Part shown: positions 2,329-12,230 of the stretch, in pieces
Layout: each line of letters opens with the position of its first letter
Numbering within the stretch: the stretch's first letter is position 1
Origin: Thalassiosira profunda
Taxonomy: Eukaryota; Bacillariophyta; Thalassiosirophyceae; Thalassiosirales; Thalassiosiraceae
Assembly (NCBI GenBank): GCA_036939355.1
Contig: JALLAP010000534.1
Location: forward strand, 1-12,230
DNA length: 12,230 bases
Direction of reading: 5' to 3'
Program-made: the position numbers and the translations under genes
Notes under the pieces: model-generated
What the model saw: only the letters and a program-made list of their open reading frames with translations
What the model was told of the DNA's origin: nothing
Databases searched by the model: none

Positions 2329-3830
2329 ATGGACATCACACACATCATGAGCGGAGCTGACTTTCACGTCCCCGGCCTGCCTCCCCTGGGGCCGAACAAT
2401 GCCCCCGGGCTCTGCCTTCCAGTGGCCGCGGCGCCGCCGGTCGCGCAAGACATTCATTCTGTTGCAAACGAGCCCGCTCGCCGCCGGCGCTCTCCTGCCG
2501 GGGCGTCGAAGCGGGTCCGTCCCCTGTGCGAAGTGGAGGGGTGCACCAGCCACGCCCAGAATGGGGCGCGGTGCCGTAAGCACGGGGCCCGGGTGAGGCA
2601 GTGCGGGGCGGAGGGGTGCGAGAACAACGCGGTCAAGGGGGGTGAGTATATTTGGTGCAGGGGTATTGAGTTTCAATATTGATGTCACACACTCACATGA
2701 ATCGTTGTGGCAGGGGTGTGCAAGCGCCACGGAGCAAAGGTGGACCGGAAACAGTGCAGTGCGCCAGATTGCACCAACAACGCGAAGAGGGGCGGCGTGT
2801 GCATCAGGTGAGGGGAGCTGCTTTGCTTTGCTGCCTTGGACGGACATTATCAAAATGCTGATTGTCTACGCAACACAGACACGGGGCCACGAAGAAGAAG
2901 TGCAGCTACGCCGGGGGATGCGATCGGGTGGAGCATAAAGGTGGATTGTGCTCCAAACATCAACTAGCGCACGAAGAAGGATTGCAATCAGCGTCATCGC
3001 TGCAGATGACAAAGAAGGGAAACCAGAAACGGCAAAGGGAATTGACGAAGGCGGGGGAGGGTGCTCCGAAGAAGAGGAAACGTCCTTGCTGCACCGTGGA
3101 AGGCTGCCAAAGCTTACGAAAAAAGGATGGCGTGTGCGTTCGGCATGGCGCCAAGGTTGGCAAGCAATGTTCCGTCGAAGGCTGCACAAACAGAGCCAAG
3201 CAACGTGGAGTCTGCGTTCGGTGAGTGAAGTCAGATATGAGAGAGCATCCCTTTGTGCAAACCGCATGGCTTGGTCTAACGCTCTCGCTTGCTCTAACAA
3301 AGGCACGGCGCGGAGCAAAAGCGCTACGAACACAGATGCACGTTCGAGGGATGCAACAAGCGGTCCTATTCCGGACAGCCCTGTGCCATGCACGGTGGCC
3401 AGCCGGTCAAATCGTATGCAAAAGTGTGCTCGCACGAGGGTTGCTCGTCGGTGGTCGTGCCCCGGTTTGATGTCTGCGTCAAACATGGCGCCAAGCGAGA
3501 GTTCAAGAAGTGCACAGTCCCCGACTGTGAATCGTTTGCTCAGAAGGGCGGGCTGTGCATCCGGTGCGTCTCGTTTTATCTATCTCCGTTGTTGCCCCTT
3601 GGCCTGTATATGTGTACATCTTACATTTTGCTTGCTTGAACAGGCATGGAGCCAAAGTGAAGACATGCCGGATCGAAGGATGCCCAAACAATGCAAGGAG
3701 AAACCAGTTGTGCATCAGGTGAATATGAAAGTGTCTGCAGTCTCATCTCAGCCTTTGGTTGCATGTGTCATGTCTGACGTTCGGCTCAATCCTCAGGCAC
3801 GGGGCAAAGTTTGCAACGCAAACGGTTTAG
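2329..3830 (+). CDS. WRKY19-type zinc-finger repeat protein (six exons)
   Basis: Exons are 2329-2641, 2714-2807, 2879-3220, 3303-3563, 3644-3718 and 3797-3830. All five introns are GT-AG and 71-82 nt long, and the joined frame gives 372 residues ending at TAG 3828-3830. The protein has a short N-terminus with a basic patch (RRRRSPAGASKR), then ten fingers of the form C-x4/5-C-x(8-9)-C-x2-H, usually followed by G-A-K. This is the pattern of stramenopile proteins annotated WRKY19-like. A classic basic nuclear signal, PKKRKRP, sits between fingers 4 and 5. A nuclear DNA- or protein-binding role is inferred only. Introns 2-5 all split the Arg codon in [VI]R-HG. The frame is open upstream to an ATG at 2071, but 2329 follows the TTTTTGCAA element and starts a cleaner protein. 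ATG 2347 is an alternative. Confidence 0.85.
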
Positions 3831-4000
3831 GGCAAGTGAGAAGATGGCTCAGGCTACTGCTGGCTCTCGAAAGGATCCAACAACAAGTTGGACAGGATTG
3901 GAGAGGGAGAAGAGGTTGGCTGGAGCAACTCTCCTTCCAGCTTCAGGGCCCTCGCGAAAATCTCGCCAATAATAAGCGATCATTTTATCGCCAAAACCGG
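3831..4000. other. 3' flank of zinc-finger gene up to transposon end
   Basis: Presumed 3' UTR and terminator region of the zinc-finger gene. No further finger unit, open frame of note or clear polyadenylation signal is seen. Its last nine bases (3992-4000) are the left candidate target-site duplication. Confidence 0.5.
3992..4000. repeat. Candidate left target-site duplication
   Basis: CAAAACCGG directly precedes the left inverted repeat. The nine bases after the right repeat are CCCAACCGG, matching at 7 of 9 positions. Nine bp is the usual MULE duplication length, but two mismatches make this only suggestive. Confidence 0.35.
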
Positions 4001-4130
4001 CAGCCTCTAACGATACCCTCTTTTTGGGCGCGCCAAAACTGGTGTCCGTCGAAGCCGCCCTTTTGCTCGCGGACACTTCCATTCTTTTGACGGAGAACCG
4101 TCCGGGAGAAGACACGGAGAATTATCCGTG
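4001..4130 (+). repeat. Left terminal inverted repeat of the MULE
   Basis: Reading inward it begins CAGCCTCTAACGATACCCTC and TTTTTGGGCG, then GGACACTTC at 4071 and a palindromic CACGGA-gaatta-TCCGTG at 4113-4130. The right end, read inward, shows the same blocks in the same order with gaps. A CGGAGAACCGTCCG-like block at 4091 makes the left repeat longer than the right. Confidence 0.75.
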
Positions 4131-4353
4131 AGAATCCTCTTCTCCCTCACCCCCCACAACAACAACACTCGCCGCGCGCATCTCTCCAATCCACACCCCC
4201 ACTCCCTCCATCGCCCCTCCCGCCGGCGGCGCACGGACGCCTCTCTCGCGTCAGTGTCAGCGCGTCTGTGCGCGGCAGGCCTCCCTCGCACTCCCGCCCG
4301 CCCCTTGCAATCGCCGCGGCTGCTCTCCGCCAGCACGCCCCCGCTCAACCCCG

Positions 4354-4416
4354 CGCCGCCTCCGTCGCGTCACCCTCACGTCGCCGCGTCGCCGCCTCCG
4401 TCGCGTCACCCTCACG
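4354..4416 (+). repeat. 27-bp direct repeat, two copies
   Basis: Bases 4354-4380 are repeated exactly at 4390-4416 (36-bp period). Each begins CGCCGCCTCC and ends CACCCTCACG. They lie in the C-rich subterminal region before the rightward gene. Subterminal repeats are common transposase-binding sites in DNA transposons, but this role is inference. Confidence 0.85.
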
Positions 4417-4448
4417 CCGTCCGCCCGCGCTCTCGTAGCTGCGGCGCC

Positions 4449-4477
4449 TTTGCAACTCCTTTGCAACTCCTTTGCAA
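4449..4477 (+). promoter_or_regulatory. Tandem TTTGCAACTCC repeat, likely proximal promoter element
   Basis: The 11-bp unit TTTGCAACTCC occurs at 4449 and 4460, with a third partial copy at 4471 (TTTGCAA). It lies 68 bp before the ATG at 4545. The same core lies just upstream of the zinc-finger gene. Spacing of one helical turn suggests repeated protein contacts. The regulatory role is inferred. Confidence 0.4.
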
Positions 4478-4544
4478 ATACAAGAGACGCGGCACCACGG
4501 CCCGCCTCTCCCTCGGCCCCATCCACACCGCCCCAATATTTATT

Positions 4545-6277
4545 ATGAGCGACGCGGGTGACGAGCCAGCGGCGCCGGCGCGCGACGAGCCAGAGGCGAC
4601 GTGCGGGGGATTCCCCTCTCCAGAGGACTTCGCAGTGGCGGTCCAGAAGGATGCTGTGCTCGGACCGGAAGTGGGAGGCAGTGTAACCGTGGCGGACAGC
4701 ACCAAAGGCTGCATCAAAGCCATCTGCACAAAGCTGGAGAAGTTCGGGCTGCACCCAACAACCATGACCAATCATACCAATCTCGCGGCCATCCGCAACA
4801 TCAAAGGGGACGCCAGCTACGGAAGGAACCACCAGAGTGTTTGCTACAAACCTGGCAAAAACCGCACCCCGATCATCCATTTGTATTGCAAAAAGTGCAT
4901 GAACATCAATACGCCCGACCCAGACCTTTATCGCGCGAGCCTCGTGGCAATTGTCTCCGTCACAACAATTGACGATCCGCACCAGATCAGTGCAAATTTA
5001 TTGGCTGTCTACCCCCATTGCAGCGAGTGTGATAAGCCGCACAAATTGAGGACCAGCTACCTGATGGACAAAGAGAATGGGGGAGATGGATGGGCGAAGC
5101 TGACCGCTCCAGTGGATGACATCGTTGGCGAAACCTTGTCCCCCATTGTTGAGAAATTGAGGGACATTCCTTGGGATGCCGGCGAAGAGGAGCATAAAGG
5201 TATGTTCTTGTGCTCTTGAGACACAGTTCCTTGATCAGCCGCCAACCCTCTCTTCACAACAACCCTTCCCTCTCCAGGTACTAGAATCGTGAATAAGCTC
5301 AAACAGCAAATGCCCGAATGGGAGTGGGATTTGCGATGGTATCTGCCTCTCTTCGGAACCAAAGAGGAGCCGGGCGTTCCCAAGGCAATCCGCGACTTCT
5401 ATTCGCTGGGCGACGACATCGAAGAGGAGCTCAATCGCATGAGGCTCAGGCTTACACTCTTTCTCGCGAACACGTTGAACGCGCCTACCGAGTTCGCCCC
5501 CATTCCAGAGTTTTTTATCCGGAAGTACGCCGCGCCCACTCCCGTCTCCATCGAGAACGCGACAAAAGACTCTACGGGGAACCACAGGACGCGCATGTGT
5601 CTCTGGAGAGGGACTCTGTCATCGCCGGGGGATTCCAATGGCAGGGCAAGCTTACAAACCAGCCAGACCACTTCGACATGCAGAACATAGCTTCCGGGAA
5701 ACTTCAGCCAAAGGAATACTCTGTCACGGAGAATCCTGCCCTCAAAAACCACATCAAGCCATTCAGCACGTCGATGCCTTTGAGCGTGGAAGGCCGGCGC
5801 ATGATCATCAACTATCGGGAAGTGCAGATTAACTATGGAGAACTGGTGGTTTTTGCGGGCGACGTGAGCCACGCCGGTTACACTCTGCATAAGACCAAGA
5901 TCCCACGAACCAATTATTGGTCCCCCACCTACCACTGTTACTTCACGTCCACCCGTCACGCGATCGATTTGGACAAGTTTGTGATTGATGTGGAGGGTTT
6001 GGCGCGGCGCCAGCCACATTTGTTGGGATACGCGTTGGCGAAAGTTGCGGTGGCAGAGTTGAGAAAGGCGAGCACCAGGCTGTGCCAAGGCCTTGAAGCT
6101 GCGCGGCAGAATGAAGGCGGGAGCGTGTCCATCGATAATATTATTGATGAAACGATTGTCAAATTGCAGCGCATGCGGCCCGCGGCCGAGACAACGGGGA
6201 CAGAGGGTGGAGAGGCAGGTTCGGAGGAGGCGGCAGAGGGCGTCAGCACTCGTGCCCGAAAGCGTCGGCAGAACTAG
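4545..6277 (+). CDS. 2OG-Fe(II) dioxygenase-like protein of the MULE (frame broken once)
   Basis: Exon 1 is 4545-5199 and exon 2 starts at 5278. The 78-nt GT-AG intron is phase 1 and joins EEHK to GTRIVNK. Residues 1-218 include two CxxC pairs (CKKC 115-118, CSEC 159-162), possibly a zinc ribbon. The C-terminal half has an HxD (HFD, codons from 5669), then GELVVFAGDVSHAG, with the distal His at 5870, 67 residues on. This is the classic iron-binding layout of 2OG dioxygenases. Iron and 2-oxoglutarate binding are inferred; the substrate is unknown. The frame shifts between about 5525 and 5590. Either one base is missing at the G4 run 5576-5579, or a 44-nt intron (GT at 5525, AG at 5567-5568) is spliced out. 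Total about 550 residues. An Arg 12 residues after the distal His could bind 2OG. It ends 41 bp from the convergent transposase stop. Confidence 0.65.
5976..6030 (+). repeat. 55-bp segment duplicated at 9713-9767
   Basis: This piece of the rightward dioxygenase gene (AGTTTGTGATTGATGTGG... to ...TTGTTGGGATA) recurs exactly, same orientation, at 9713-9767 next to an N. It is most easily explained as a misplaced read or contig end. Confidence 0.9.
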
Positions 6278-6317
6278 GGATTTGAAAGATAAATGTTATT
6301 CTAATTGATACAGTTTA

Positions 6318-9055
6318 CTAGTTACGCTTCCTTGCCCTCTTCCCTTTCTTCTTGGTCGGACTGCTGGCCTTTTTCTCACGTTCGTGAGTACAATGGTTCA
6401 GGCTTTCGCCGAGTCCAGCCTTCTTTGATCTTGAGTCCCGTCGGGCCCGTGCGGCCATCAAGTCGGTTCTCATTTTCCGCAGCCCATCCCGCAGTATATC
6501 CTTCCCTTCCTCTCCAAGACCCTTGCCGAGCTTGGTCACCGTCTCGTACATTGGCATAAAGTCGTGGTAATGCTTGCCCGTTGTTTTTTCCTTCCAGTCC
6601 AGGTCACCCATCTCACAGTCGCTTTCTTCGTCCGACCCAAAACCTCCCGCCGCCGCGCCGCCGTAACTAGCGTCCGAGCCATTTCCATCCCCTGTTTTGC
6701 CACCAATTTGCGACGGCACCTTGTAGTTGTCGCTGCAGTTGACGTCCTGCTCGACACCGATTGGGGCGGCTGGGACGTTGCTCTTGACTGGCTTCCTTGA
6801 CAGAGCCCATCTCTCGGATGCGGTGGATACCTCGCCTCCCTCCGAGCAGGGGGAACAGCCAAGCATCTCAGCATCGATGCCAAGGTCCGCCCGAACGATC
6901 CTGTCAGAAATGGTCTGCCAGTAGTTCGGGCCGCGGAGGCAGAGCGTTCCCAAACTGCGTGTGAAGTACTCGACTGGAGGCGGAGACGAAGCCATAACTT
7001 ATTAACCATAACATTGCCTGTTGTGGCACATTCGCCGATCTCAAATGCTTGGTCTATATCTGCCCATTCTTCGGCCGTAACGGGCACTCCTTCCTGATCA
7101 CACTCTTCTCGTATCTTGATCAGTTCCTTCGACAGAGTGTCGTTCCTCCCGTAGTAGTAGCTGTAGGCGATCAGCCATCGCAGTTTGGCGTCCTGCAGCT
7201 TCGGATGGCGCCGCAGCACCCTATAGATGTGGCGACATGCCTGGCCGCGTTTCTGGAATCTCTTGCAGTCGCAGATCATGACCTTCTCCCCCGGCCGTTT
7301 TCCGCGCTCAAACCTAGGTATCACTTTTTTCATTGTCCGGTTCAGCACAGTTTTGTATGCGCCCAGTGCATGCTTGTTGTCGCTGAATACCTTGTCTTTG
7401 CATTTTGCCAGAGCCTTCCTGGCCTTTTTTCGCGGCGGAGGCCGTGCAGACGACTCTAGGGAATCCCGGTTCAATTCCTCCAGAATAGTTGCGGCATGAT
7501 CGTCAACATCAAGCTGATCGAAAAGAACGTCGCAGACGCGGGCTGGCAGATCCAAGTCCTCCTCCGGGGTAGTTTCGTGATCAAAATATACGCGTTTGAC
7601 GTAGAACTCCGACGCGGAAGCTCGATGCAGACAGTATTTAGGGCTCTGCCCATGCTCGTGGAGGAGTTGTTGGCCCGAATGATCCGTCAGACGGTCGTCC
7701 GTCTCGTCCCGTTTTGCCGCTTTTCCTACTCTTCCTCGCATGTCAGCGGCAACCTTTCTGGATTTGGCTGCTTCCTTGTCTTTGTTTATTTTGTTGATCT
7801 TTCCGGCCGCGACGGCAACGTCGTCGTTCGGCTTCGGCCCCTGGCAGTGTCTCTTGTATACGCGGTGCTCGGCCTCGTTCACACCGGTGGTGCAATTTCC
7901 AAGAGTCATGAGCCCGTCGAACTCGCACTCGAACAATTTCGTTCGGTTGCAGAAGAAGCTTTTGGCGAGGAAGACTCTAATGGCCTCCCTGACGTTTTCT
8001 TCGATTTGTCCGTGGTGGTCCGCCTGTGATTCCGTCATGTAGAGATCCATTAACTGCTGGGCCACCTTGACCTCCTCGTGACTTTCGTAGTACTTGATGA
8101 AGTACCAGAGCCAGCGCACCAACAAATCCACCTCGATTGAGGCCTGCCAGGACCGTTTGCGGGTAGCCGCCAGCTTTGATTTGTATTTGGAATCCTCGGT
8201 AAAGTTGCGATTGACTTTGTGCCAGGCGCAGTGACGATGGAAGGCGTTTGGAAACACTTTGTGCATCTCTCTTCCCCTTCCGCAGACGCTGTCGGCCGCC
8301 TTGGTTTCCTGTTGGTCAGCGTCCGTGATGAATTGCTCGACGCGCTCCAGAGCCGTGCCCGGATGGAGTATGGGCATGGCGTTTCCAACTTTGGACGGCA
8401 TGAAGCACCATGTGTGTCCGAAAGACTTATTCATATTATCTTTCCCGCACATGGTGTAGAGTGGCCGATCCTCCGAGTTGGTTTCCTCGGTATCGTCCCC
8501 TCCCATGAATTCAGGAAACATGTCGAACTTTCGGCGGGCGTCCGCATTGGTCCAAGCAATGGCCAGCACAATCTTTCCGTTGGAAGTCTTCCGTAGATTG
8601 GTGCGCGATCTCTGATAGTCCTCGGCGAAATTCCTGGGATTGTCGAATTCGTCGCCGAGGTCCTGGAGGAAATCTTCCTCTTCCTCGATCTTCTCTGCAT
8701 TTTTGACTGCCTTCTTTTTTTCTTTTAACGTGAGAAGGTTCGAGTCATAGTCGCCGTATAGAACCACAAAGGAGCACTTTTCATCGCTCTCCAGCTCAGC
8801 GATGAGGCGGTCAACTGCTGTTGCGTCCTCTGGGTCGATGTTTGGGTCGGCAGTCATCACTAGATCGTCCTTTCTTTTCCGGTTTAGGTACCGCAACTGG
8901 TGTGGTTCTAGGTGCAGGCCAGTTCGCTTGTTGTATAGACTACCGGCAGCCGCAGGCGGAACGTAGCATCCCATAGCATCAGTGCAAACCTGCACTTCGG
9001 TTTGGTTGCCAAGATGAGAATGCATTCGGAGCAGCTCTGGGTTCTCATGACTCAT
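6318..9055 (-). CDS. Mutator-like (MULE) transposase with SWIM zinc finger
   Basis: From ATG 9055 the frame gives about 680 clear residues. The order fits FAR1/MULE transposases. An N-terminal region (1-160) precedes a core with DDTEETN (first Asp about 187-188), FITDAD (second Asp 245), VFPNAFHRHCAWHKVNRN (268-284), and TTGVNEAEH (Glu 394 or 396), the likely D-D-E triad. A SWIM finger CxC...CxH follows (C595, C597, C607, H609). The role is cutting and joining the element ends in the nucleus. After about residue 675 the plausible protein continues in another frame (from about 6995 to TAG 6320-6318), with HYHDFMPMYETVTKLGKG and a basic Lys/Arg tail. A short intron would restore the frame (GT near 7036, AG at the TAAG or CTCCAG sites); a frameshift is the alternative. 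The start overlaps the upstream dioxygenase stop by 11 nt. Confidence 0.85.
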
Positions 9056-10774
9056 GAATGTGAAAACAATGCGACAAATTGCCTCGCTGCTTGTGTGGCA
9101 AAAACCACCTCTTTTTGTCCCCATCCCAGAAGACGCGTGCAATGAGCCCCTTCCCGCCATGCTGGAAAAAGGTGGGGTGTTTTGTGTCAAAGTGTTTCCT
9201 CAGGATTCGCTCTTCGTCTTTGGGATGCAGAACAAACAAGTCCCCGTGGTTAAAGTGAAACTCCTGATCACCATCTGGTATGCGCACGTGTGAGTGCTTC
9301 TTCTTCCCACTCGCTTTGTGCACTTTGCGTTCCTCCTTAGTTTTGTGACGCATCAGCTGGAATTGCAAGATCCTGGCGTCAGCGACGACAAGAATGAAGG
9401 TGGGCGAGTATTGCATTTGGCAGTTCTCATTCTGAACGAAATCACCGTCTGGCGAATTTCTCTGATCTCTGTGGAATCGGATGTTCTGCCTGTTCCCCCA
9501 ACTCCGCGTAAATGCGACCCCAACAGTCGAATTCGGATAAAGAATTTTCATCTCCTTGTCGTTGGCATATTCGACATCCGCCCAATCCTTTACCGTTGAT
9601 GCTACAATATCATGGTCGCTAGTGTATTTGAGATATGTTAGATGACTGCAACGCAGCGATTTGATTTGTTAGGAACGACACAGTGAGACGAAACTGATCA
9701 ACACGCACGAANAGTTTGTGATTGATGTGGAGGGTTTGGCGCGGCGCCAGCCACATTTGTTGGGATAAATCCTTTACCGTTGATGCTACAATATCATGGT
9801 CGCTAGTGTATTTGAGATAAGTAAGATGACTGCAACGCAGCGATTTGATTTGTTAGGAACGACACAGTGAGACGAAACTGATCAACACGCACGAAGAATG
9901 CTCACTGTTTAGGGATGCCATGCGTTCTAATTCCAGAGCCGGTGCCGTACGTTGCGCGGTATGCTGTCTCAGGGTTGTTTGTTTCCTTACTTGGGTCGTC
10001 CTGCCCAAGGTTCAAACACAAGTAGGCGGGTCTCTCCAAACTCAGGAGTGGGTATGTTGTACCAATAGGGTTGTCAGCGGTAACAGGGAACCCGGGCCCC
10101 TGCTCGGATGGACCGCGGACTCCGTGCAGAAACATACCATCAAAGATGCTCACCAACGGAACATTCAACTGAGGGAAGTCACTGAGCCAATCCTTCCACA
10201 CATGCGACTTGAGTTGCCCGTCAAAGTCATCGATCGTCCCATTGGTTGGGCTGCATCCCATCTTGCTCTCGTCGCGCCCAACACCATTGCATTGCTTGGG
10301 ACAGGCAGGCCCATCTTTGGACGAGTGCTCTGTCTTTAGACGTTTGGGTTGTGTTGCATCATTAACTTCCTCGGACGGTATGGTAGCATCCGCGACAACG
10401 ACCCTTGTGTAAGTGCCATCACGAAGCTTTGGGGGGCCCGCTTTAAAGCGACGAAGAATCCTCTTCCTGAACTCATCGTCACTCATTGCAATCCACCCCC
10501 CTTGATTTTTGTTGTATTGGAGAACCCGTCTGGTTTTCTTCAATGATAAAACCATCCCCAATACAAATTGTTTCTTCAGTTTCTTCTGGCCCTTCTGCTT
10601 GCCCAGATTTTTGTATTCCTCTCTTCTGCTTTCGCAATAATCCCGATAGAAAACACTTCCCGGATGATACTTTGCTTCCTCTCCATGTGAAATTAGGATG
10701 TCTTCCTCCTTAGGTATGAGTATGACATCGCTCCCCGCGGGCTGAGGGCGTCCCTCCGTTGCTATCGCCGCCAT
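9045..10774 (-). CDS. DUF6824-like / 2OG-Fe(II) dioxygenase fusion protein of the MULE
   Basis: Exon 1 is 10774-9906 and exon 2 is 9645-9045; joined they give 489 residues. The donor GTGAGC (9905-9900) and an acceptor TTGCAG preceded by CTAAC give a phase-2 junction. Residues about 22-112 (EEDILISHGEEAKYHPGSVF, later GGWIAMSDDEFRKRILRRF) resemble DUF6824, though the usual GRG of that family is absent. Residues 320-470 look like a 2OG-Fe(II) oxygenase: HRD (H348, D350), SPTFILVVADARILQF, FNHGDLFVL, distal H452 and R460. Metal and 2OG binding follow from the fold; the substrate is unknown, with modified DNA or RNA bases a guess from AlkB- and TET-like relatives. The acceptor exists twice because 9584-9711 and 9768-9895 are duplicated. 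Using the nearer copy gives a 76-nt intron, matching other introns here, but that copy's exon is cut at 9768. The ATG at 10774 was chosen for its context; ATG 10876 is possible. Confidence 0.65.
9584..9711. repeat. 128-bp direct repeat, copy 1
   Basis: Identical to 9768-9895 except for two substitutions (9636 and 9640, T versus A). It covers the acceptor, branch-like CTAAC and first codons of exon 2 of the minus-strand dioxygenase gene. Both differences fall at third codon positions (CTA ACA versus CTT ACT, Leu-Thr in both). Confidence 0.95.
9712..9767. other. Ambiguous base and misplaced 55-bp fragment (probable assembly join)
   Basis: Position 9712 is N. Bases 9713-9767 copy 5976-6030 exactly, on the same strand. 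The flanks are the two 128-bp direct repeats. This is the signature of two contigs joined without merging their overlap, with a chimeric read end left in place. A true duplication cannot be excluded. Confidence 0.8.
9768..9895. repeat. 128-bp direct repeat, copy 2
   Basis: Second copy of 9584-9711. It is the one physically continuous with the donor at 9905, giving a 76-nt intron, but its exon is interrupted at 9768 by the misplaced fragment. Confidence 0.95.
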
Positions 10775-11202
10775 TGCAGCGGGTATCGGACGGACGCGAC
10801 GGCGCGAGCGCGCGATCCAATCCGAGCCGCAACCCTGCCGCGACACCCGCGAGGCGAGGGCCGGCAGCAAAGACAAAGAGGGAGAGCCTCGGCGTCGCCG
10901 TTTACAAGGGCGTGACCCCGCCGCCGGCCTTTGTGCTGTATGCTGGAGGCGTCGCAGGGGGCCACACGCGGGGGAGGGGAGGGCGACGGCGAGGACGGCG
11001 TCGCGCGCGATGGGCGATGATCTACTGCGATTTGTACGTGCAAATAGCCGGTGCCGGCCGGCAGGCGTTGAGCCGGAGGTGCGGAGGGGGCCTGGGCGAG
11101 GTGGGGTGTTGGTTGGGGCGGTTGTTATGGAGCAACGGCGGCGGCGCTACGAGGGCGGATGGCGACGGTCTGTGGTGGAGAGGGGGGGGCGAGGGGCGAT
11201 GT
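10775..11202. other. GC-rich right subterminal region of the MULE
   Basis: Presumed promoter and 5' UTR of the leftward dioxygenase gene. The top strand is G-rich with long G runs (for example near 11181). Long open frames here are typical GC-rich artefacts and have no recognisable domain. No TTTGCAA repeat like that of the left end is seen. Confidence 0.5.
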
Positions 11203-11287
11203 CCCGGAAAATCCTCCGTGAAAAGAAGTGTCCGGCCACAGGCCGCGACAGTCTGACCGTCGCCCGAAAAGAGGGTTTTAGAGGCTG
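11203..11287 (-). repeat. Right terminal inverted repeat of the MULE
   Basis: Read inward from 11287 it begins CAGCCTCTAAAACCCTCTTT, then CGGGCG, GGACACTTC and CACGGAGGATTTTCCG. These are the same ordered blocks as the left end, shortened by gaps. The match to the left end is clear over about 30 bp at the tip and over the GGACACTTC/palindrome block. Confidence 0.75.
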
Positions 11288-11296
11288 CCCAACCGG
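11288..11296. repeat. Candidate right target-site duplication
   Basis: CCCAACCGG follows the right inverted repeat; its left counterpart is CAAAACCGG (7 of 9 identical). Offered only as the best-fitting pair at the repeat boundary. Confidence 0.35.
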
Positions 11297-11482
11297 CGCG
11301 GCCCTCACCCCTACTCGGCCTGCGCCCCATAGGTTGGGGCTGCGCTGCGTGCGGCGCCCAGGATGTCCCATCATCGCCGCCTCTATCTCCACTTGCGGTT
11401 TCCCAGGCCTGATTTGCATCCGTCGGCGCGGAACCACCGCCCATCAAACTCGTCACTTCGCAGAGGAGAGTGGCGGCGGTCC

Positions 11483-12230
11483 ATGCACCACGTCGCCGCC
11501 ATGGAGGGCCGGCTGCGGGAACAGCTGGATCGTCGGCGGCAGGAGGGCACGCTGCGTTCGCTGATGCCACTTCCAAAGTCTGGACAATCGATCGACAGTA
11601 TTGGCACTGCAATTGCCGATCAATCCTCATCGCCGCCCGTCATCGACTTTGCGAGCAACGACTATCTCGGACTCGCCCGCGATCGCAACCAGCACGATTT
11701 GGTCGAAGCCGCCTATCAGAAACTATTTTCTCAAAACAACAATTCCAACACATCCGCGCCACTGCTTGGAGCGACCGGAAGCCGTCTTCTGTCCGGGGAT
11801 TCGAACCTCGCCCGATCGCTCGAGGCGCAACTGGCACGGATCCACAATCGTCCCGAGGCCCTGCTTTTCAATTCCGGATACGATGCAAATTTATCCATTC
11901 TGTCGAGCTTGCCTTATAATGAGAACGATGCAATCGTGATGGACGAGCTGGTGCACAACAGCCTGGTGATGGGCGTGCGGATGGGCCGATTGCACGAGAA
12001 GCGGGTGTTTTTGTTTCGGCACAATGATGTGGCAGACTTGACAAGAGTCCTAAAGGAGGTGGCATCGTCGTCGCCGCAATCGTCAACGTTGGTGGTGGTT
12101 GAGAGCGTCTACAGCATGGACGGGGACATCGCTCCACTGAGGGAGATACTGGATTTGGCTCACCAGATGGGCGCTGGAGTGATGGTGGACGAAGCACACG
12201 GGTTGGGAGTATACGGACGCACAAATATCG
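11483..12230 (+). CDS. bioF: 8-amino-7-oxononanoate (KAPA) synthase, BioF type, 5' part
   Basis: A pyridoxal-phosphate alpha-oxoamine synthase. KAPA synthase condenses pimeloyl thioester with L-alanine in the first committed biotin step. The 249 residues in view run without introns and are cut by the window edge. From Met 11483: IDFASNDYLGLA (54-65), GATGSRLLSG (96-105), LLFNSGYDAN (127-136), DELVHNSLVMG with cofactor-stacking His158 (154-164), VVVESVYSMDGD (204-215) and VDEAHGLGVYG with Asp236 and His239. The catalytic lysine lies beyond the edge. The frame is open to a stop at 11330, and an upstream ATG at 11363 would add 40 residues that are Arg/Ser-rich with few acids, like a mitochondrial presequence. 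A TTTGCAT at 11413 favours the later start. The related enzymes KBL, ALAS and SPT fit less well, but the call rests on motifs only. Confidence 0.88.
   Translation, partial: MHHVAAMEGRLREQLDRRRQEGTLRSLMPLPKSGQSIDSIGTAIADQSSSPPVIDFASNDYLGLARDRNQHDLVEAAYQKLFSQNNNSNTSAPLLGATGSRLLSGDSNLARSLEAQLARIHNRPEALLFNSGYDANLSILSSLPYNENDAIVMDELVHNSLVMGVRMGRLHEKRVFLFRHNDVADLTRVLKEVASSSPQSSTLVVVESVYSMDGDIAPLREILDLAHQMGAGVMVDEAHGLGVYGRTNI

Follow-up and report, generated by a model that had tools for sequence, protein, structure and literature searches.

Does a Mutator-like element (MULE) of the diatom Thalassiosira profunda carry its own nucleic acid oxygenases? This question is raised by the contig JALLAP010000534.1 (here C533), which we analyzed at its full length of 12,230 bases (the window) within an assembly of 21.8 Mb and 1366 contigs. 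The original prediction had described a MULE with two different putative 2-oxoglutarate (2OG)-Fe(II) dioxygenases, one of them joined to a DUF6824-like domain. According to our analysis the element is real. Only one of the oxygenases in that prediction holds up, namely the DUF6824 gene, whose relative on contig C178 resembles AlkB-family demethylases in a structure model of low confidence. We lean slightly towards the reading that positions 3999-11289 are a decayed Mutator-like DNA transposon of 7.3 kb, whose lineage encodes a SWIM-type MULE transposase together with a DUF6824/AlkB-like 2OG-Fe(II) oxygenase gene, and that this oxygenase may act for the element.

The window element has the terminal inverted repeats of a MULE (coordinates of all features are given in Table 1). 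Its outer bases GGCAGCCTCTAA are identical in all 12 positions between 3999-4010 and, inverted, 11278-11289, which is two bases beyond the ends proposed originally. Further inward ACCCTCTTTTNGGGCG and then a GGACACTT..TTTT.ACGGAG block follow in the same order at both ends, so the ordered shared blocks of the original prediction were found again. The inverted ends are about 90-115 bp long. When the two 300-bp ends were aligned locally, the score was 126.8. A control of 587 random 300-bp pairs, in which repeats and shared stretches were kept, gave two higher scores (134.4 and 223.8); the others reached 121.8 at most.

The decisive check on the ends, stronger than this score, was an independent element of 959 bp located at C867:7732-8690. 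This second element bears the ends of the window element, and its own two ends agree at 47 of 48 positions. Its right end matched the left end of the window element with 84% over 129 columns, and its left end matched the right end of the window element with 86% over 64 columns. In the assembly the pattern ACCCTCTTTTNGGGCG was present four times, at these four ends and nowhere else; a control pattern did not occur at all. Because no transposase was recognized among its open reading frames (ORFs), the C867 element looks like a non-autonomous derivative. Telomere-like CCCTAA/TTAGGG runs are numerous in it, on either strand.

The target-site duplication (TSD) of MULEs comprises 8-11 bp. At the window 7 of 9 bases agreed, which is expected by chance in about 1.5% of cases with three offsets on each side. 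At other copies the original prediction had suggested a search for intact 9-bp duplications; none was visible at the C867 element.

Since a transposase sits between the ends, the element is not a Pack-MULE, a non-autonomous form that contains gene fragments only and no transposase. In Pfam the window transposase exceeded the cut-off for SWIM (20.6 bits, cut-off 19.6), and its MULE match was below the cut-off of 27.6 (17.1 bits, E 0.0079). A related transposase on contig C178 (C178:12570-10552) was 42% identical over the query residues 50-724. Here, the MULE domain reached 29.1 bits in the genome search and 27.1 bits in hmmscan, just under the cut-off, and SWIM was over its cut-off. Both proteins keep DDxxxTN, the second Asp, CxxH, NEA and CxC...CRH and thus the combination of a DDE transposase, CxxH and a SWIM finger that characterizes MULEs. 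The MULE transposase postulated inside the repeats was therefore confirmed. A KDZ transposase, which TET/JBP-carrying KDZ transposons possess, was not among its Pfam matches, which comprised SWIM and MULE. The frame of the window transposase is broken at approximately 9044-9057, in a 7-bp tandem repeat, and at approximately 6992-7011. An alignment of the transposases revealed no relatives in viral or genome contigs.

At least seven places with a MULE domain were found in the genome profile search at E ≤0.1. Among these seven, only C178 and C533 were assigned to this lineage by transposase comparison. The MULEs of C74 (24% identity) and C46 (22%) represent another lineage, and no oxygenase was seen in about 9 kb of each; of C186 the analysis covered 4.5 kb. 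In the genome search the five other MULE contigs (C74, C46, C186, C1309 and C262) had no oxygenase-family match.

The DUF6824-oxygenase gene of the element is split by an intron. The DUF6824 domain in its exon 1 and the oxygenase-like domain in its exon 2 (9645 to approximately 9141, minus strand), with an HxD...H...R pattern in the gene, are joined as originally proposed. DUF6824 is probably typical of diatoms. In this genome 56 matches were present at E ≤0.01. The window exon 2 is shorter than the seven other rows of the oxygenase alignment immediately after the last His, lacking the Ser194 column and the C-terminal part. It runs in frame into RVFWDGDKKRWFLP (about 9137-9054), which is a segment of the transposase at C178. 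In the window copy the oxygenase has therefore apparently lost its end and the transposase its start, with a fusion of the two. Since its oxygenase is shortened and joined to a truncated transposase and its frames are broken, the window copy is probably inactive. No relatives of the window oxygenase were found in the protein collection (0/27 candidates).

The unbroken order of this gene was found at C178, where DUF6824 (40 bits) is followed by the TYGTGS linker, an intron in the corresponding position (by reading of the sequence) and the oxygenase exon (8958-9764). This exon is open with all conserved residues and looks intact. A DUF6824-oxygenase gene thus adjoins the transposase at both loci of this lineage that were found (2/2), and the other transposase copy, too, has an oxygenase gene beside it. 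The transposases of the two loci are 42% identical and the oxygenases 31%. At C178 the two genes are convergent and approximately 230 bp apart, whereas in the window both are located on one strand. A candidate pair of inverted ends at C178 (best arms of 18 bases with 17 matching, E 0.08) had no convincing extension and was not accepted. Because inverted ends were not recognized there, co-mobility of the two genes at C178 is argued from their adjacency only.

With the C178 oxygenase as query, four loci of the family were found in the genome: C178, C533, C32 (37%) and C347 (32%). A match on C659 (E 1.15) was set aside as chance. Together, the recurring ends, the pairing at C178 and the four-locus family support a MULE lineage carrying a DUF6824-oxygenase.

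The gene on C347 (C347:692-5000) is AlkB-like. It starts with a Cys-cluster segment (CCHCKTKKLGC...CQNC, by reading), and its form of the shared segment is KYGSG. It is convergent with an ORF of at least 875 residues less than 90 bp apart. This ORF had no family match in Pfam or NCBIfam and no PDB match better than E 0.44 overall, and the profile comparison with the transposase of this lineage indicated no relation (E 0.47). Its D, D, CxxH and NNQHSE segments form a layout which we take to be the pattern of DDE transposases and suggest a transposase-like, unclassified protein. On C32 (C32:28596-31214) the AlkB-like gene consists of one open frame and is followed by a 509-aa ORF without a family match. 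A near-palindrome of approximately 52 bp lies just upstream of this gene (about C32:28469-28520). No DUF6824 match was present on either contig.

The proposed relationship to AlkB is based on a structure model of the C178 oxygenase (mean pLDDT 44.8). Its best Foldseek fold matches were members of the AlkB family (AlkB, ALKBH1/2/3/6 and FTO), and among the matches listed in one fold comparison 50 of 50 belonged to this family, again for the model of pLDDT 44.8. The HxD...H Fe(II) triad was conserved in all eight rows of the oxygenase alignment. In the AlkB family a signature RxxxxxR follows the last His. This signature was not found; instead Ser-x5-Arg was present in all seven rows that contain the column, with a gap in the window. 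Because RxxxxxR is lacking, we call the oxygenase AlkB-like and do not file it as a member of AlkB. None of the six aligned oxygenase sequences matched the AlkB family PF13532 at E ≤5, and neither C178 nor C533 was among the 11 matches of PF13532 in the genome at E ≤10. The oxygenase alignment revealed no relatives in viral or genome contigs. None of the VIA-align rows carried the name of TET/JBP, KDZ or another oxygenase family, which does not exclude such families. The oxygenase exon and its relatives had no oxygenase match in Pfam, a search that involved no direct comparison with TET/JBP proteins.

Table 1. Positions of the features in the window
Feature	Position	Strand	Remarks
Possible 9-bp target-site duplication, left copy	3992..4000		CAAAACCGG; 7/9 match to CCCAACCGG at 11288-11296
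Left terminal inverted repeat	3999..4112	+	Outer 12 bases GGCAGCCTCTAA; core ACCCTCTTTTTGGGCG at 4015-4030; alignment of both ends
Gene 1	4545..6277	+	Exon 1 4545-5199; intron 5200-5277 (by reading of the sequence); exon 2 frame broken at ~5530-5640
MULE-type transposase	6318..9199	-	Main frame 9199-6539 (887 aa); C-terminal part appears to continue in another frame, 6998-6318 (comparison of window ORFs with C178)
DUF6824-oxygenase gene, exon 2	9045..9645	-	AlkB-like 2OG-Fe(II) oxygenase domain (to ~9141), C-terminus shortened; comparison with C178
Probable scaffold join	9584..9895		128-bp piece twice (9584-9711 and 9768-9895; 2 differences), N at 9712, 55-bp copy between
DUF6824-oxygenase gene, intron	9830..9905	-	76 nt, GTGAGC...TTGCAG; position as in the C178 gene (by reading of the sequence)
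DUF6824-oxygenase gene, exon 1	9906..10774	-	DUF6824 domain (10702-10457), Pfam 32.9 bits, cut-off 27; linker with TYGTGS segment, common to C178
Right terminal inverted repeat	11202..11289	-	Alignment of both ends; similarity to C867 end

Outside the element, the first part of a gene for a class I/II aminotransferase (Pfam PF00155) was found just past the right end (11333-12229), and a 38-bp inverted repeat (92%) flanks a 33-bp loop at 1848-1956. Cys-repeat genes adjoin the element in the window (2339-3830) and flank the C178 locus on both sides (C178:4388-6997 and 12945-14279), where one of them overlaps the start of the transposase frame. Two tested pieces of these genes, one from the window and one from C178, matched Pfam Zf_WRKY19. 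Contig C178 also bears two chlorophyll a/b-binding genes, by which the genome is recognizable as that of a photosynthetic eukaryote.

Could the element carry two active oxygenases that jointly edit nucleic acid marks, as the original prediction had it? Gene 1, the proposed second oxygenase, is enclosed by the ends of the element. Its intron is plausible, and it contains one HxD...H layout with a GDVSHAG segment. However, the same layout arose in 710 of 5000 shuffles of gene 1 itself and was present in 27 of 132 ORFs of at least 150 residues from nine stretches; moreover, the frame is broken upstream of the HxD. No match better than E 0.14 was obtained in Pfam, none in NCBIfam and nothing better than E 0.44 in a PDB sequence search. 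Gene 1 had no relative in the protein collection (0/4408 candidates) or in viral contigs and no second copy in the assembly or at C178, the other weak match being on C681 (E 0.90). Its structure model failed (pLDDT 38) and was too poor for a fold search. Gene 1 was not counted as an oxygenase, given its chance-prone motif, its lack of relatives and its broken frame. The claim of two different oxygenases is unsupported since gene 1 has no match at C178 or elsewhere and its motif is weak, and we regard joint action of two enzymes as very unlikely. The possibility that the oxygenases are single-copy host genes, which had been named beforehand, does not hold for the DUF6824-oxygenase with its four loci; gene 1 is single-copy. 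Least credible of all appears to us an effect of the host neighbourhood or of the assembly, by which oxygenase and transposase would be adjacent by chance or through a false scaffold join. The exon order across the join and, by reading, the intron position equal those of the unbroken C178 locus, the adjacency was seen twice and the genes of the window are enclosed by the two ends of the element, even though an N and a duplicated 128-bp piece do interrupt the DUF6824-oxygenase gene. These are probably a scaffold artefact of two contigs that were scaffolded without merging. The 55-bp stretch beside the N is an exact copy of 5976-6030, which is part of gene 1. Neither this join nor the broken frames had been reported in the original prediction.

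In the reading that we prefer, the transposase would move the element by its inverted ends, as its family suggests. DUF6824 might, at a guess, guide the oxygenase to the DNA or the transcripts of the element. Judged by its nearest fold, the AlkB-like enzyme would free DNA or RNA of methyl groups through oxidation, and this demethylation would keep the element expressed and unsilenced, or intermediates would be repaired. An anti-silencing role of the oxygenase, such as has been proposed for the fungal TET/JBP transposons, is to us the most attractive inference, and the AlkB fold would fit it; the window enzyme itself is shortened and probably dead. The enzyme might also serve transposition and not silencing, for example by the repair of alkylated single-stranded intermediates or by RNA modification. 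AlkB and ABH2/3, which are alkylation-repair enzymes on DNA or RNA, are among the best fold matches, but nothing in the data separates this role from anti-silencing, and we consider it improbable. MULEs often capture host genes, and a passive uptake of a host DUF6824-oxygenase gene with no role for the element would agree with the large size of the DUF6824 family here, with the shortened and frame-broken window copy and with the two oxygenase loci that have no MULE match on their contigs. Nevertheless, the pairing persists at two loci with proteins as diverged as given above and at C178 the exon has an uninterrupted frame with every conserved residue, which looks like long retention under constraint. 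Passive capture is therefore rather unlikely in our view.

Several points weigh against an AlkB-like enzyme that acts for a MULE. The fold model is poor (pLDDT 44.8), no Foldseek match reached E 0.001, and ranks 3, 8 and 12 were taken by unrelated proteins, whose probability was lower (0.28-0.44). The RxxxxxR signature is not present, neither the C178 oxygenase nor its alignment had a sequence match in Pfam or PDB, and the window oxygenase alone failed to match a host AlkB profile (E 0.087). In the window the oxygenase is incomplete at its C-terminus; C178 has no recognized inverted ends and a gene orientation different from that of the window; and C32 and C347, two of the four oxygenase-family loci, have no MULE-domain match on their contigs. 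Finally, both the substrate and the activity of the enzyme are predictions.

With more doubt than confidence we put forward a wider proposal. Different kinds of algal DNA transposon might repeatedly have taken up an AlkB-like nucleic acid oxygenase behind different putative DNA-targeting domains (DUF6824 in MULEs and the Cys-cluster at C347). This would be a second independent invention of an element-encoded methyl-mark eraser beside the fungal TET/JBP transposons. If true, the repeated uptake would point to the use of an N-methyl base mark (N6-methyladenine, 6mA, or N6-methyladenosine, m6A) by these algae as a signal for silencing. In itself, an AlkB-like enzyme in a MULE lineage would suggest that N-methyl marks of DNA or RNA matter for algal silencing.

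Compared with AlkB-family demethylases, the enzyme shares the fold match of the C178 model, the HxD...H and the final Arg. It differs in that the first Arg of RxxxxxR is a Ser, in the absence of a PF13532 match and in the fusion to DUF6824. No paper on DUF6824 and no description of an AlkB-like enzyme in a MULE was found in the open-licence literature, which was the body searched. In two papers with AlkB terms, the passages considered name host ALKBH5 genes and MULEs separately.

VANC is the anti-silencing protein of the VANDAL elements of plants. VANDAL elements are MULEs that bear a gene with a presumed role in epigenetic control (PMC12730594), and MULEs of oomycetes carry SET domains (PMC6446971). 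The lineage described here resembles both as a MULE carrying a gene thought to affect epigenetic control, but they encode an anti-silencing protein or a histone methyltransferase and not an oxygenase. In a table of Dupeyron and others 2019 (PMC6446971) the MULE-Diatoms, group 37, have a single ORF, a SWIM finger and ends of 123-124 bp, and the TSD entry reads "No TSD and not indicated". Like the window element they are stramenopile MULEs with a SWIM finger and inverted ends; unlike these elements with one ORF and no extra feature, the window element adds the DUF6824-oxygenase gene.

The closest parallel in design are fungal DNA transposons with TET/JBP dioxygenases, among them Kyakuja, Dileera, Zisupton, Plavaka, hAT, EnSpm and others (Kojima 2025, PMC12730594). 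According to its introduction TET/JBP is present in 11 transposon lineages, none of them a MULE, and the paper proposes an escape from silencing; AlkB, diatom, stramenopile and Mutator gave no match in a word search of the paper, and MuDR is mentioned twice, in the introduction. Both systems are DNA transposons with a 2OG-Fe(II) nucleic acid oxygenase, here a predicted one, beside the transposase. In the fungi several unrelated transposon lineages carry the enzyme. There it is TET/JBP; here the enzyme is AlkB-like, the transposase is of the MULE type and the host is an alga. Transposon-borne 2OG oxygenases (TET/JBP) and SET-bearing MULEs are thus already known, and we judge the AlkB-like enzyme in a MULE to be new. 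If true, mark-erasing transposons would extend to a further family of enzymes, a further superfamily of transposons and a different branch of life.

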